A DNA stretch of 32,641 bases from Pseudomonadota bacterium (lineage in GTDB: Bacteria > Desulfobacterota > Syntrophorhabdia > Syntrophorhabdales > Syntrophorhabdaceae): assembly GCA_026388275.1 (NCBI GenBank), contig JAPLKB010000062.1, forward strand, positions 1 through 32,641, in the 5' to 3' direction. Position numbers and translations under genes: made by a program. Positions 27,420-32,641 of this stretch are shown piece after piece. The stretch's first letter is position 1, and every line of letters starts with the position of its first letter. The notes under the pieces were generated by a model, which made no database searches, had not been told where the DNA came from, and was given only the letters and a program-made list of their open reading frames with translations.

Positions 27420-29327
27420 ATGAAGACGGAAGAAACGGTTGTTTTTCTGAAAAATATCGCACCATTTCATACGCTTGACGAAACAGACCTGAATGAAATA
27501 GCTAAAAACATGGCAGAAGAGAGTTTTTTACTGAAAGATTTCATTATTAAACAGGGAATGCACGGATTAAATTTCTATATTATAAAAAGCGGCCTCGTTA
27601 AAGTCTTTACCAATGACAATTCAGGCAACGAAAATATTTTAGCTTTTCTTGGCGAAGGGGATTGTTTCGGTGAAATGTCCCTCCTCAGAAACAAACCGAC
27701 AAATGCAAATGTTCAATCAATGGAAAATACCGTATGTCTTATATATACAAAGGAGTATTTTCTCGATATGGTCGAACACTATCCCGAGTTTATGGATTTT
27801 TTCGATCAGCTCCTAATGCACAGGACCAAAAGCACATATAAGGAATTCCTGTCAAAGGAATCTCATGTAACTCAGGTGGAACCCTATCTTTATAACAAAC
27901 AGGTTAAGGATATGATGTCGTTTAAGCGTGGATTTATCAGTGAAAAAAACAGCATAAGAAATGTGGCAAAGGAAATCCTGGACAACAGAATAGGTCCGCG
28001 CATTGCAATAGATGACCAGGGAAATCCCAAAGGATTAGTAGGAATTTACACAATAACTAATGCGTTGCTATTCGAGGATGTTAATCCTGGTGATCCTGTG
28101 ATGAATATTTTGGAAAAAGAATTTTATTCGATAGATTCCAATAGTTATTTTTTTGATGCACTTCACTGCATGATAAAGAATAATACAAACACCCTTGTAG
28201 TAACTGAAGGAGACAGATCAAAAGGTGTATTAACAGGTTTTGACCTGCTGAGATTCAGAGGCAGAGAAACTTTGTCTCTTCTCCGGAATATCGAAAATGC
28301 CACTGATCTTTCTCAACTGGACATTATGCGGGGTGAGGTTGAAAAAGTCCTGAGAGAACTAATGGCAGACGGTGCACTTGCCTCCCATGCCTGTAAGATT
28401 GTGAGTGAATTCAATGACAAAGTCGTAAAGAAGGTAATTGATTTCGCCGGGGAAGTATGTGGTTCGCCTCCTTGCGCATATGCATGGTTAGGGTTGGGAA
28501 GTGAAGGAAGAGAGGAACAGACATTATTTACAGACCAGGATAATGCAATCATTTTTGATAATCGTCAATCAAATGGATCAGCAGAATATTTCAAAAAATT
28601 TTCCGATGTTGTGGTAAACGGGCTCAATCAATGCGGTATCCCGCTTTGCAAGGGAAACATCATGGCTACAAATCCTAAATTTTTTGGAGACTTGAAAGAG
28701 TGGAAAGCAAAAACATCAAAATGGATTAAGTCTCTGGACCTTAGCGAAGATGAATTAATGGATACCTATGTTTTTCTGGATTTCAGATCATTGCATGGAG
28801 AACAGACTCTGGAAAAAGAACTAAGGATACATGTACTGAAACAGGTCAAAGAAAATCCTTCATTTCTAAAATCTTTAGCCCAAGCCATTGTTTCAATTCC
28901 TATGCCAATCGGATTTTTTAAAAATTTCATTGTGGAAAAAAGCGGAGAGCACAAGGACCGTTTGAATCTAAAGCTCTACGGCCTCGTTCCTCTGATTACC
29001 TGTATAAAGATTATGGCGCTCCAATATGGTGTTCCTGAAACAAATACCCTTGAAAGGATAAAGGCCTTGGGTTATTTGCAGGCCATCAATATTGACCAGC
29101 AGGAGGCGCTTGTACAAGCCTTCGAAACCTTTCTTACACTTAAGATAAGGAACAATCTTGCAGATATTGATGAGGGCAAATCTTTTGGAAACTTTGTAAA
29201 ACCTGCCGAACTTTCTACCAGGCAAAAACAGATACTAAAAGAAGCTTTCTGGGCGGTATCGGAACTGCAAAAAACAACACAGAATACACTCAAAGTAGCG
29301 CCTCAGGGATTGGGATTCATGGGATAA
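27420..29327 (+). CDS. cNMP-binding / CBS pair / DUF294 nucleotidyltransferase-like protein
   Basis: A 635-residue cytoplasmic signalling protein. Domains in order: a cyclic-nucleotide-binding domain (about 10-125, with IIKSGLVKVF and GEGDCFGEMSLL); a CBS pair (about 150-290, including VGIYTITNALL and GVLTGFDLLRF); the DUF294 nucleotidyltransferase-like domain with GLGSEGREEQTLFTDQDNA (19 residues, starting near 358); and a DUF294 C-terminal domain (~480-620). The GSEGR...TDQD core is like PII-uridylyltransferase-type transferases. Such proteins are often paired with a DnaQ exonuclease or transporter gene; neither is adjacent. Ribosome binding site GGAGGGG. Domain calls are firm; ligands and target are unknown. 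Confidence 0.9.
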   Translation: MKTEETVVFLKNIAPFHTLDETDLNEIAKNMAEESFLLKDFIIKQGMHGLNFYIIKSGLVKVFTNDNSGNENILAFLGEGDCFGEMSLLRNKPTNANVQSMENTVCLIYTKEYFLDMVEHYPEFMDFFDQLLMHRTKSTYKEFLSKESHVTQVEPYLYNKQVKDMMSFKRGFISEKNSIRNVAKEILDNRIGPRIAIDDQGNPKGLVGIYTITNALLFEDVNPGDPVMNILEKEFYSIDSNSYFFDALHCMIKNNTNTLVVTEGDRSKGVLTGFDLLRFRGRETLSLLRNIENATDLSQLDIMRGEVEKVLRELMADGALASHACKIVSEFNDKVVKKVIDFAGEVCGSPPCAYAWLGLGSEGREEQTLFTDQDNAIIFDNRQSNGSAEYFKKFSDVVVNGLNQCGIPLCKGNIMATNPKFFGDLKEWKAKTSKWIKSLDLSEDELMDTYVFLDFRSLHGEQTLEKELRIHVLKQVKENPSFLKSLAQAIVSIPMPIGFFKNFIVEKSGEHKDRLNLKLYGLVPLITCIKIMALQYGVPETNTLERIKALGYLQAINIDQQEALVQAFETFLTLKIRNNLADIDEGKSFGNFVKPAELSTRQKQILKEAFWAVSELQKTTQNTLKVAPQGLGFMG

Positions 29328-29359
29328 ACAAAAGAAGAGGGAAAATTAATATTTTTTTC

Positions 29360-29395
29360 TTGACATACTATTGGTTTGTTGGTTAAAATACCAAC
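29360..29395 (+). promoter_or_regulatory. Promoter with overlapping ArsR-type operator
   Basis: TTGACA at 29360-29365 is followed after 17 bases by TTAAAA (29383-29388). A perfect 6+6 inverted repeat, GTTGGT (29378-29383) and ACCAAC (29390-29395) with a 6-base TAAAAT spacer, covers the -10 box. This is the expected position for autorepression by the ArsR regulator that starts 20 bases downstream. Confidence 0.7.
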
Positions 29396-29415
29396 AGGCA
29401 AACGAGAGGTGAATC

Positions 29416-29736
29416 TTGATAAGTTTTGAAGAAGCAGAAATCAGAAGCAGAATCATTAAAGCGCTTGCACATCCGGTAAGGTTGATGATAGTTGAGGTGC
29501 TTAAAGATGGAGAAACCCCTTTTTCAAAACTCAACGACCTTTTTGAATCTGATAAATCAACCGTATCGAAACACCTTCTTGTATTGAAGGAGGCAGGAAT
29601 CGTCTCTTCACGGAAAAGTGGTTTGGAAATGTTCTATAAGCTTGAGGTGCCATGTATTACCGATTTTTTTAGCTGTGTTACGGCAGTTATCGAAAATACC
29701 GTAAAAAAGCAAAAGGCATGCCTATGTAGCAAGTAA
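29416..29736 (+). CDS. ArsR/SmtB-family transcriptional repressor
   Basis: A 106-residue winged-helix repressor that would release DNA on binding a metalloid or thiol-reactive ligand. The core has KALAHPVRLMIVEVL, then FSKLNDLFESDKSTVSKHL (19 residues, recognition helix) and LVLKEAGIVSSRKSG. C-terminal cysteines Cys80, Cys87, Cys102 and Cys104 are candidate sensor ligands; the classical ELCVCDL motif is absent. The TTG start is supported by AGAGGTGA 4 bases upstream. It lies directly after a promoter with an inverted-repeat operator and heads the redox/lipoyl cassette. Confidence 0.9.
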   Translation: MISFEEAEIRSRIIKALAHPVRLMIVEVLKDGETPFSKLNDLFESDKSTVSKHLLVLKEAGIVSSRKSGLEMFYKLEVPCITDFFSCVTAVIENTVKKQKACLCSK

Positions 29737-29794
29737 TTTTTTGTTACTGCGTTGATATATTTGTGAATACAATATTACATAATGATGAGTCATT

Positions 29795-30049
29795 TTGAGA
29801 AAACGTTATAAATTTCCTATTGTTGTATGCGTCTTTGTATTTGCATATTTTGTTCCCTTTGAAAAGCTAAGGGCGCAAAAGGCAATTCCTGAATCTTTTT
29901 ATATATGCCTGCTTTCTTTGCTGCCAGCGCTATCATTGCTGACTATGATAGCGATAACAAGTCTTCTTATGACTTATGACAAAGAAGTTTTTTACAATCT
30001 TAAACTGGTAACCGGGGTTTCAACTATAGCAGGAATGGCGTTCGGGTGA
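29795..30049 (+). pseudogene. Internally deleted DUF318 (ArsP-like) permease remnant
   Basis: The 84-residue frame (TTG start) begins RKRYKFPIVVCVFVFAYFVP and FEKLRAQKAIPESF, which is how DUF318 permeases of arsR-linked operons begin. It then jumps to LPALSLLTMIAITSLL and TGVSTIAGMAFG, which matches their extreme C-terminus. The roughly 200 residues between, with the transport core and cysteine-rich motif, are missing. The reading frame is kept across the junction. It is probably a non-functional remnant of an organoarsenical or metalloid exporter, or less likely a two-helix membrane peptide with a new use. Identification rests on remembered family sequence. Confidence 0.55.
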
Positions 30050-30123
30050 ATAGTTGATTAAAATTACCGTTGGGTGATGAGCTTAAATATTAAATGTATA
30101 ACTTAAAACAGGAGATAGGGGGC

Positions 30124-30351
30124 ATGAAGATACAGATTCTTGGAGCTGGCTGTGCAAAATGTACAGAGCTTGCTGCTCACGCAGAAGAGGCGGCTAAGCA
30201 GGCAGGGATTGAGTTTGAGATTGAAAAGGTAACAGATATCAAAAAAATCATGGATTTTGGTATAATGATGACCCCGGCTATTGCCATCGATGGGCAGGTA
30301 AAGAGCGCAGGCAAGGTTCTCTCTGCAGATGAGATAAAGAAACTGCTGTAA
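30124..30351 (+). CDS. Small redox-active disulfide protein (thioredoxin fold)
   Basis: A 75-residue thioredoxin-fold protein of the 'redox-active disulfide protein 2' type. The active-site CAKC is at residues 10-13, following MKIQILGAG. The cis-Pro loop is MMTPAIAIDG, and it ends LSADEIKKLL. The start at 30124 is set by AGGAGATAGGGGG just upstream; ATG at 30094 would add ten residues. Proteins of this family commonly follow DUF318 permeases. Probably a cytosolic thiol-disulfide carrier; partner unknown. Confidence 0.88.
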   Translation: MKIQILGAGCAKCTELAAHAEEAAKQAGIEFEIEKVTDIKKIMDFGIMMTPAIAIDGQVKSAGKVLSADEIKKLL

Positions 30352-30421
30352 AGATGGTTGGCGCAAACGCTTTGTACTATTTTATTGTTTATAATTAATT
30401 TTAAAAGTGGGGGTATTTATA

Positions 30422-31096
30422 GTGTCTGAAAACAACTTGTTCAAACGGCCAATGCAGAAAAAGTATATTTTGAATATTCACAAGGTTCAAACTAAGTGGA
30501 CTACTATCTGTAAGGCTCTCGGCCTTGTTCTCTTTATCCTATTATCCAAGGGTTCCATTACTCCTATATATGCGATAGACACTCTTGTTCCTTCATTCGG
30601 GATGGGGAAGATAAACGTAAGGCTCTATACGGACTATTTCTGCTCACCATGCAGGTCCATGGAACCCAAGATCGAGCCAATAATAACCGAACTGGTAAGG
30701 AAAAATAGTATTAATATTACCTTTGTTGATGCTCCTTTTTCCAGATCTTCCATACTGTATGCCCGGCACTTTCTATACATAATGAATGAGAAAAAGGATT
30801 TTGATCTTACCCTTATTGCACGGTCTGCCCTTATTAACGCATCCCTTGAAAAGATAACTGAAGAGATAAAGCTGGAAGAATATCTCATGAATAAAGGGAT
30901 TAAATTCAAAACTTTCGATGTAAAACCAACGTTTGAAATCCTGAATAAATACCTGAAGGATGACAAGATAAATACTACACCTACCTGCATCATAGATCAG
31001 AATGGAAAAATAGAACGGTATAGTGGTGAACCGGAGATTATCAATGCACTTGAACATTTGAAGCAGGAGATACTGAATAAAACCGTAATAAAATAA
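30422..31096 (+). CDS. Membrane-anchored thioredoxin/DsbA-like protein (CSPC)
   Basis: A 224-residue protein starting at GTG 30422, after a GTGGGGG site. A single hydrophobic segment at about residues 27-51 should act as a signal anchor, placing the rest in the periplasm. The thioredoxin fold then has RLYTDYFCSPCRSM with CSPC at 74-77 and a cis-Pro loop in NTTPTCII. The middle (DAPFSRSSILYARHFLYI) looks like the helical insertion of DsbA/DsbG-type proteins. It would oxidise or isomerise periplasmic thiols. An in-frame GTG at 30407 is an alternative start. Part of the ArsR cassette. Confidence 0.8.
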   Translation: MSENNLFKRPMQKKYILNIHKVQTKWTTICKALGLVLFILLSKGSITPIYAIDTLVPSFGMGKINVRLYTDYFCSPCRSMEPKIEPIITELVRKNSINITFVDAPFSRSSILYARHFLYIMNEKKDFDLTLIARSALINASLEKITEEIKLEEYLMNKGIKFKTFDVKPTFEILNKYLKDDKINTTPTCIIDQNGKIERYSGEPEIINALEHLKQEILNKTVIK

Positions 31097-31285: not shown

Positions 31286-31738
31286 ATGGGTGACAATTTT
31301 ACTGAAGTAACTTATGACAAATTTATCTTCAAGGTGGACAAAGGTTGTCTCTATCACGCAAACGAGTGTTGGGCAAGGCAGGAAGGAGACATGGCAGTGG
31401 TGGGTATAACGGACTTTCTGCAAAAAACAGCCGGTGATGTGGCATTCGTAGAACTTCCGGAGACAGGCGCCAATCTGTCACAGGGGGGTGAAGCCGGTGT
31501 TATGGAGACGATCAAAACTACCGTAACTCTCATTTCTCCCCTCTCCGGTGAAGTGTTGGAAATTAATTCCTCTCTTGAAGAGGAACCCCAATTACTCAAC
31601 ACCGATCCCTTCGGTGCAGGCTGGCTTTTCAAACTCAAGTTGAACAAATGGGAAGAAGAAAAAGGACAATTGATTGACGCTGAGACGTATCTTCCTCTTA
31701 TGAAGAAAAAGATTGAGCAGGAGCTATCAAAAAAGTAA
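31286..31738 (+). CDS. GcvH-like lipoyl-domain protein
   Basis: A 150-residue protein with the lipoyl-domain fold of glycine cleavage H protein. The region GITDFLQKTAGDVAFVELPE (20 residues, 40-59) matches GcvH. The lipoylation site is Lys77 in METIKTT, followed by LISPLSGEVLEIN and FGAGWLFKL. An N-terminal extension carries Cys21 and Cys28. The ribosome binding site AAGGAGG is strong. No glycine-cleavage genes (gcvT, gcvP) are near, so a role as a carrier in another pathway is more likely. Relatives called LbpA serve sulfur oxidation via Hdr-like complexes, but no such genes are seen here. Confidence 0.85.
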   Translation: MGDNFTEVTYDKFIFKVDKGCLYHANECWARQEGDMAVVGITDFLQKTAGDVAFVELPETGANLSQGGEAGVMETIKTTVTLISPLSGEVLEINSSLEEEPQLLNTDPFGAGWLFKLKLNKWEEEKGQLIDAETYLPLMKKKIEQELSKK

Positions 31739-31753
31739 TGCCTGGAGGAAAGA

Positions 31754-32164
31754 ATGAAAAATAAAGTCATTATTATCCCATGCAGTGGTGTGGGTAAAGC
31801 CTATGGCGAGATTGGACGGCAGGCAACATATGAGGCAATAGATAGTCGACCGGAAAGTGCTTCGACAGTCTGCCTTGCCAGACTCATGATTGATGATGCG
31901 GAAACAAAGGCCGCATTAAAGGGAAATTCAATTATTACCGTTGACGGGTGCGCAAAGGACTGTGCCAAAAAGAATGTGGAATCAGCCGGTATGCAACCTG
32001 ACTGCTCATTGCGGGTAATCGAGACATTTAAGGGACACCGGGATCTTAAACCTACCGGTATTCTGGAATTAGGGGATGCGGGTTTCACCCTCGTGCATAT
32101 CCTGGCCGAACGGATCCAGGCTGAGGCAGACCGTCTTTTAGAAAAGGAGGCACAACAATGCTAA
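31754..32164 (+). CDS. DGC-domain putative zinc-binding protein, copy 1
   Basis: A 136-residue protein of the DGC-motif family of putative metal-binding proteins. The pattern is IIPCSGVGKAYGEIGRQATY (20 residues) with Cys10, Cys40 after a variable loop, and VDGCAKDC with Cys66 and Cys70, giving the name-giving DGC triplet. A C-terminal helix ends the protein. GGAGG ribosome binding site. The stop overlaps the start of the second DGC gene by 7 bases. Family members are uncharacterised; a Cys4 zinc site is inferred from the spacing. Confidence 0.82.
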   Translation: MKNKVIIIPCSGVGKAYGEIGRQATYEAIDSRPESASTVCLARLMIDDAETKAALKGNSIITVDGCAKDCAKKNVESAGMQPDCSLRVIETFKGHRDLKPTGILELGDAGFTLVHILAERIQAEADRLLEKEAQQC

Positions 32165-32577
32165 TGGATCTTATGCCAAAGAAGGTGGGCATCATACCGT
32201 GTAACGGCGAGGAGATATGCGAAGGAACCATTACGCGTTTCGCAAGCCGAAAAGTGCTCGATAAACTCAGACCCGGAAGCACGGTTACTATCTGTCTACC
32301 TCTATTTATAGCAGGAGGCGAAGAAGAGAAAAACTTCGCGAAGACATTTCCTACCATAACAGTTGACGGCTGCGACAAGCGATGCAGTCAGAAAAGCACG
32401 GAGCGCCTGAGCGCAAAACCATATGATTCCATAGTTGTGAGCGAGGTGCTGCAAAAATGCGGGATTAAGACACCTCTATCACGGGCAAGTCTTACCGGGG
32501 AAGACCAGGCGGCTGTCGATGCAGTAGCTGATGAGATTGCAAAAAAGGTTGATGAAATACAACAGGGCAAAAAATAG
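32158..32577 (+). CDS. DGC-domain putative zinc-binding protein, copy 2
   Basis: A 139-residue homologue of the upstream protein with the same cysteine plan: Cys15 (GIIPCNGEE), Cys46, then VDGCDKRC with Cys72 and Cys76, plus an extra Cys21. Strong AAAGGAGG ribosome binding site; it overlaps copy 1 by 7 bases. Sequence outside the motifs differs clearly, so it is an old duplication rather than a recent one. The two may form a heterodimer. Function unknown. Confidence 0.8.
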   Translation: MLMDLMPKKVGIIPCNGEEICEGTITRFASRKVLDKLRPGSTVTICLPLFIAGGEEEKNFAKTFPTITVDGCDKRCSQKSTERLSAKPYDSIVVSEVLQKCGIKTPLSRASLTGEDQAAVDAVADEIAKKVDEIQQGKK

Positions 32578-32585
32578 GAGGCATT

Positions 32586-32641
32586 ATGCCGAAATATACA
32601 AATAAAGTTGTCTGGAAAGGTAAACGTGAGGGGTACACGTA
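32586..32641 (+). CDS. 5' end of a gene, possibly OsmC-like
   Basis: ATG with a strong AGGAGG ribosome binding site opens a frame that runs off the window. The visible 18 residues, MPKYTNKVVWKGKREGYT, resemble the first strand of OsmC/Ohr-type peroxidases (TNxVxWKG), which use two cysteines against organic peroxides. This is too short for a firm call. It follows copy 2 of the DGC pair by 8 bases and is surely the next gene of the cassette. Confidence 0.4.
   Translation, partial: MPKYTNKVVWKGKREGYT

Follow-up and report, generated by a model that had tools for sequence, protein, structure and literature searches.

A probable deletion pseudogene of an ArsP_1 permease in a mosaic metal-resistance operon of a Syntrophorhabdaceae bacterium

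Description

An 84-codon open reading frame from a Syntrophorhabdaceae genome (GenBank assembly GCA_026388275.1, contig JAPLKB010000062.1; "the window" is the whole 32,641-nucleotide stretch of this contig that was analysed) is very probably a deletion pseudogene of an ArsP_1 permease within a mosaic metal-resistance operon. As an earlier note had proposed, the frame, here called the stub, brings the N- and C-terminal ends of a DUF318/ArsP_1 permease together across an internal deletion, and both halves align to full-length permeases. Coordinates of the stub and its neighbours are given in Table 1.

Table 1. Features of the stub locus (positions in the window)
Feature	Position	Strand	Basis and remarks
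Operator-like inverted repeat GTTGGT-N6-ACCAAC, upstream of arsR	29378..29395		Read by eye
ArsR/SmtB-family regulator, mosaic	29416..29736	+	Profile search; 3' part from ~29549 near-identical to G001:C89, 5' part not close
Permease stub	29795..30049	+	84-codon frame, TTG start at 29795, stop ends at 30049 (window ORF check); homology to permease ends
N-part, ~ residues 1-37 of intact permeases	29795..29905	+	Homology search, alignment
Deletion junction, approximate	29905..29906	+	~345 codons gone
C-part, ~ last ~47-49 residues of intact permeases	29906..30049	+	Decayed; homology, alignment
7-base gain relative to sister copy, reads as tandem copy	29965..29971	+	Alignment
MTH895/ArsE-family thioredoxin-like protein (Thioredoxin_3)	30124..30351	+	Profile search
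DsbA/thioredoxin-like protein	30407..31096	+	Same direction, downstream
GcvH-like protein and two DGC-domain proteins	31286..32577	+	Same direction, downstream

Results

Homology searches of the stub were made first against 40 relatives and then against 39 genomes of the family. Stub residues 1-38 match residues 1-38 of permeases 430-463 aa long and stub residues ~36-84 match their C-terminal end, with best E-values against the family genomes of 1.2e-8 (N-half) and 8.7e-5 (C-half); in the reverse search, a full-length relative queried against the window genome gave residues 2-37 and 383-431 adjacent to one another at the stub locus. On the scale of locus L061 (Syntrophorhabdaceae MAG SKW74), where an ArsR gene, an intact 431-residue permease gene and a thioredoxin gene lie together, the missing middle is ~345 codons or ~1,035 nt (residues ~38 to ~382) and includes the invariant CSC (residues 96-98) and TLTE (361-364). 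Deletion endpoints were judged by eye, the junction codons being too diverged from intact genes for base-level endpoints or microhomology.

Two intact orthologues that were scanned score 251 and 257 bits against PF03773, for which the cut-off is 32.3; in intact orthologues this match starts at residue 33, and the N-part lies almost wholly outside it. On its own the stub gives no match of note to Pfam or NCBIfam, with no match to PF03773 at E<=10 for the window copy and none at E<=1 for the sister copy described below. What the stub shares with ArsP_1 permeases is the homology of its ends and its gene neighbourhood, and it lacks both the PF03773 score above the gathering threshold and the CSC/TLTE core expected of a functional member.

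The same junction is present in G001, the other genome of the same genus examined (G001:C89:240937-241197), so that the short form that the earlier note proposed to seek in related strains does exist. The G001 stub, which is carried by a contig of 244 kb and has other genes around it, encodes 86 residues and differs from the window copy by 12 substitutions in 248 aligned sites. Because the junction recurs on another contig and in another context, an assembly deletion as the origin of the stub is ruled out, and from comparison of the two known copies the deletion is shown to predate their split. Within the order, matches came from 24 of 46 genomes, with the short form in two of them (the window genome, G000, and G001); the other 22 have frames of 378-463 aa, except G005, G042 and G043, whose frames are 115-190 aa and whose matches sit close to the start of a contig or on contigs that are short.

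Contigs of public named genomes yielded no relative when searched with the stub as query, and 14 loci when searched with ArsR. The stub matches seven of these at E<=0.01, six with full-length permeases (432-463 aa) and a seventh (L071) cut off by the end of its contig; at an eighth (L062) a different permease was read from the DNA at the equivalent place, and the remaining six gave no stub or permease match. In a separate tblastn examination of 14 loci, a full-length permease matches at 10. The thioredoxin gene adjoins it downstream in all 10, and an ArsR gene lies just upstream in five (close, 68-73%, in four of the 10; 40% in one).

The inverted repeat in front of arsR was also found, by eye, upstream of arsR in G001:C89, G001:C7 and L061. 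In L061 a further repeat of similar form (GTTGG-N8-CCAAC) separates arsR from the permease gene; in front of the stub there is no repeat as clear. Putative lipoyl-type genes follow on G000:C18, after the window's GcvH-like and DGC genes. A described regulatory RNA over the conserved block was considered and rejected, as an Rfam search of window positions 29300-30500 returned no match to known RNA families at E<=1, though such a search could miss an undescribed RNA.

Decay is clearest in the C-part. The sister's C-part aligns without gaps to intact permeases. Read in the sister frame, the C-part keeps 14 of the 23 residues that are invariant in 19 intact orthologues, with nine lost, against 23/23 or 23/24 kept by each of the 19 in a leave-one-out control; the N-part keeps eight of nine invariant positions. 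Identity of stub to intact proteins is 41-51% over the C-part (intact to intact, 59-98%) and 46-59% over the N-part (46-97%). Besides its 7-base gain, the window copy misses 1 base at ~30001, which puts ~10 codons (roughly 29972-30001) out of frame, and its frame stops four codons before the native end. The statement that the stub keeps frame therefore stands for the junction and fails further on, where +7/-1 changes shift the C-half codons and the window copy ends four residues early.

Initiation signals are also degraded. Both stubs start with TTG, whereas the 20 intact starts listed comprise 18 ATG, one GTG and L007, which has an ATG two codons upstream of the listed position. The anti-Shine-Dalgarno sequence pairs with the two stubs at -2.3 and -2.0 kcal/mol and with the 20 intact starts at -5.1 to -8.9 kcal/mol. 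In the same genome uvrB has an equally weak Shine-Dalgarno site (-2.1 kcal/mol), so a weak site alone is no proof against initiation, which may yet take place at the stub.

We considered whether the stub could be a retained mini-protein, a membrane protein of two to three helices fixed after the deletion and working, for example, alongside a redox protein or a different exporter. The short form occurs in two species with the frame open in both, the +7/-1 changes restore frame (a 1-in-3 chance if neutral), and AlphaFold run on the single stub sequence draws three helices (mean pLDDT 64); for the intact L061 permease (six sequences) mean pLDDT is 38, and no structural argument is drawn. Between the stubs the N-half is near-unchanged, with 1 difference in 111 sites. 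Over stub codons 1-60 dN/dS is 0.31, from four nonsynonymous and four synonymous changes, which are too few to decide (ArsR dN/dS is 0.03, from 17 changes).

Set against such retention, the N-half is equally frozen at synonymous sites (0 changes in 24), the two copies encode different residues at ~10 C-half codons, and a TTG start with almost no Shine-Dalgarno site precedes a frame that in the window copy is four codons short. We consider a mini-protein of this kind improbable, and likewise its fuller form, a membrane protein of 84-86 residues translated from TTG and retained by both species, which would be a small partner to the redox proteins of the operon or to a different exporter.

An open frame does not call for selection. 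One random deletion in three leaves an in-frame junction. In neutral simulations begun from the sister copy (open meaning both frames at 80-110 codons), both frames stayed open in 42%, 26% and 17% of runs with 7 substitutions per lineage and 0.5, 1 and 1.5 indels, respectively, and in 7.5% with 14 substitutions and 2 indels. Open frames are thus common under neutrality at the observed divergence and no selection is needed, and the earlier note's view that frame preservation is unusual for decay is not borne out. The mini-protein that it raised as a question loses ground likewise, given the degraded start and ribosome-binding site, lost invariant residues, two frame shifts, early stop and neutral survival that is not rare.

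Selection on the N-half was rejected as the leading explanation of its low divergence. In the segment that resembles G001:C89, identical runs of 141, 132, 124 and 112 bases occur, of which the stub's is the 124-base run, and dS against G001 in six other window genes is 0.55-1.11. Frozen synonymous sites together with identical runs elsewhere in the segment point to recent exchange and not to protein selection. Upstream of arsR (the preceding gene and the arsR promoter) the window aligns with G001:C7, and from mid-arsR to the contig end it is close to G001:C89, with divergence of 0 to 18% by gene. ArsR codons 1-18 have a dS of 0.72 against G001:C89 and 0.47 against G001:C7, and codons 46-106 have 0.14 and 0.84, respectively. 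These comparisons make the window look like two arsR operons brought together by recombination within arsR, or else like a chimeric contig, and the segment that holds the stub apparently moved between the two lineages once they had split. The mosaic arsR, whose promoter and first codons resemble those of G001:C7, was compared across window positions 29341-29736, L089 2507-2976 and L021 14490-14879.

The chimeric reading, taken to its end, would make the locus an assembly artefact, a metagenomic chimera joined inside arsR whose true genome has an intact permease here, as in G001:C7. It would account for the window following G001:C7 over the promoter and the gene that precedes arsR, and G001:C89 from mid-arsR. 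The last 141 bases of the window (32501-32641), moreover, recur without a mismatch at the start of G000:C18 and at the end of G001:C89, which suggests a single (co)assembly behind both genomes, with breaks at a k-mer that the contigs share. Given this shared end, a chimeric window contig is possible, though not for the stub itself, which in G001:C89 lies on a 244-kb contig with other gene context and independent substitutions. The C7-type permease was, in addition, not found in G000. An artefact is in our judgement improbable.

At the place of the stub operon, G001:C7 has ArsR, a permease of 315 residues that is intact and belongs to a different subgroup, and thioredoxin; putative DGC, DsbA-like and ACR3-like transporter proteins (names from sequence) follow in this order. 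This operon lies after a cNMP-binding/DUF294 gene (L089, G001:C7, 596-6579), and the part of G001:C7 after DsbA has its close G000 match solely at C18:14446-15852. G001 has two ArsP_1-like genes (C7, C15), and in G000 a single ArsP_1 gene exceeds the family cut-off (C18:7635-8699, 203.6 bits); it adjoins a gene for a putative PadR-like regulator. In the middle of this intact G000 permease (L033, C18 7620-8819) a stretch is rich in Cys and includes CCSS and CCC runs.

Discussion

Bacterial pseudogenes that arise by internal deletion show a large deletion, after which indels and an early stop appear and invariant residues are lost. The stub resembles them in each of these respects and differs in that its junction is in frame and still open over 84-86 codons. 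In L061 an intact homologue occupies the equivalent operon position; the stub has lost its core and carries secondary disabling changes (7-base gain, 1-base loss, early stop, lost Shine-Dalgarno site and ATG). The likeness to the L061 ArsP_1 permease (PF03773, formerly DUF318) extends to the first 37 and last ~47 residues, the gene order and the upstream regulator, whereas the ~345 central codons with CSC and TLTE are absent and the start and Shine-Dalgarno site are degraded.

Orthologue comparison shows that the permease gene of an arsR-permease-thioredoxin operon lost ~1,035 nt, its ends being fused in frame by chance, after which the canonical start, the Shine-Dalgarno site and several invariant residues went as well, and the window copy took on two frame shifts and an early stop. 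With the core lost, no working exporter would be made, and other exporters of the genome presumably take over. The stub may persist with the flanking arsR and thioredoxin genes that are kept and, judging by dS, through recent segment exchange between co-occurring species; the near-unchanged N-half is the one feature that requires this added step.

We take Campylobacter jejuni ArsP and the lost permease to belong to the same broad family (DUF318). C. jejuni ArsP is a trivalent organoarsenical exporter (PMC6205960). The intact orthologues here match best the NCBIfam SO_0444 Cu/Zn exporter (109 and 116 bits for the two scanned, below the cut-off of 300) and SaoE (100 and 112 bits, below the cut-off of 325). 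As these scores fall under the equivalog cut-offs, no substrate is assigned to the lost permease, and the organoarsenical export to which the earlier note linked it is not established for the orthologues.

A dead permease gene is an ordinary finding. Should the stub prove to be translated and retained, it would exemplify a membrane micro-protein born by deletion. As a caution, an in-frame stub that is common to two species and has ~110 near-unchanged bases need not be a selected mini-protein where the segment that carries it has recently been exchanged.
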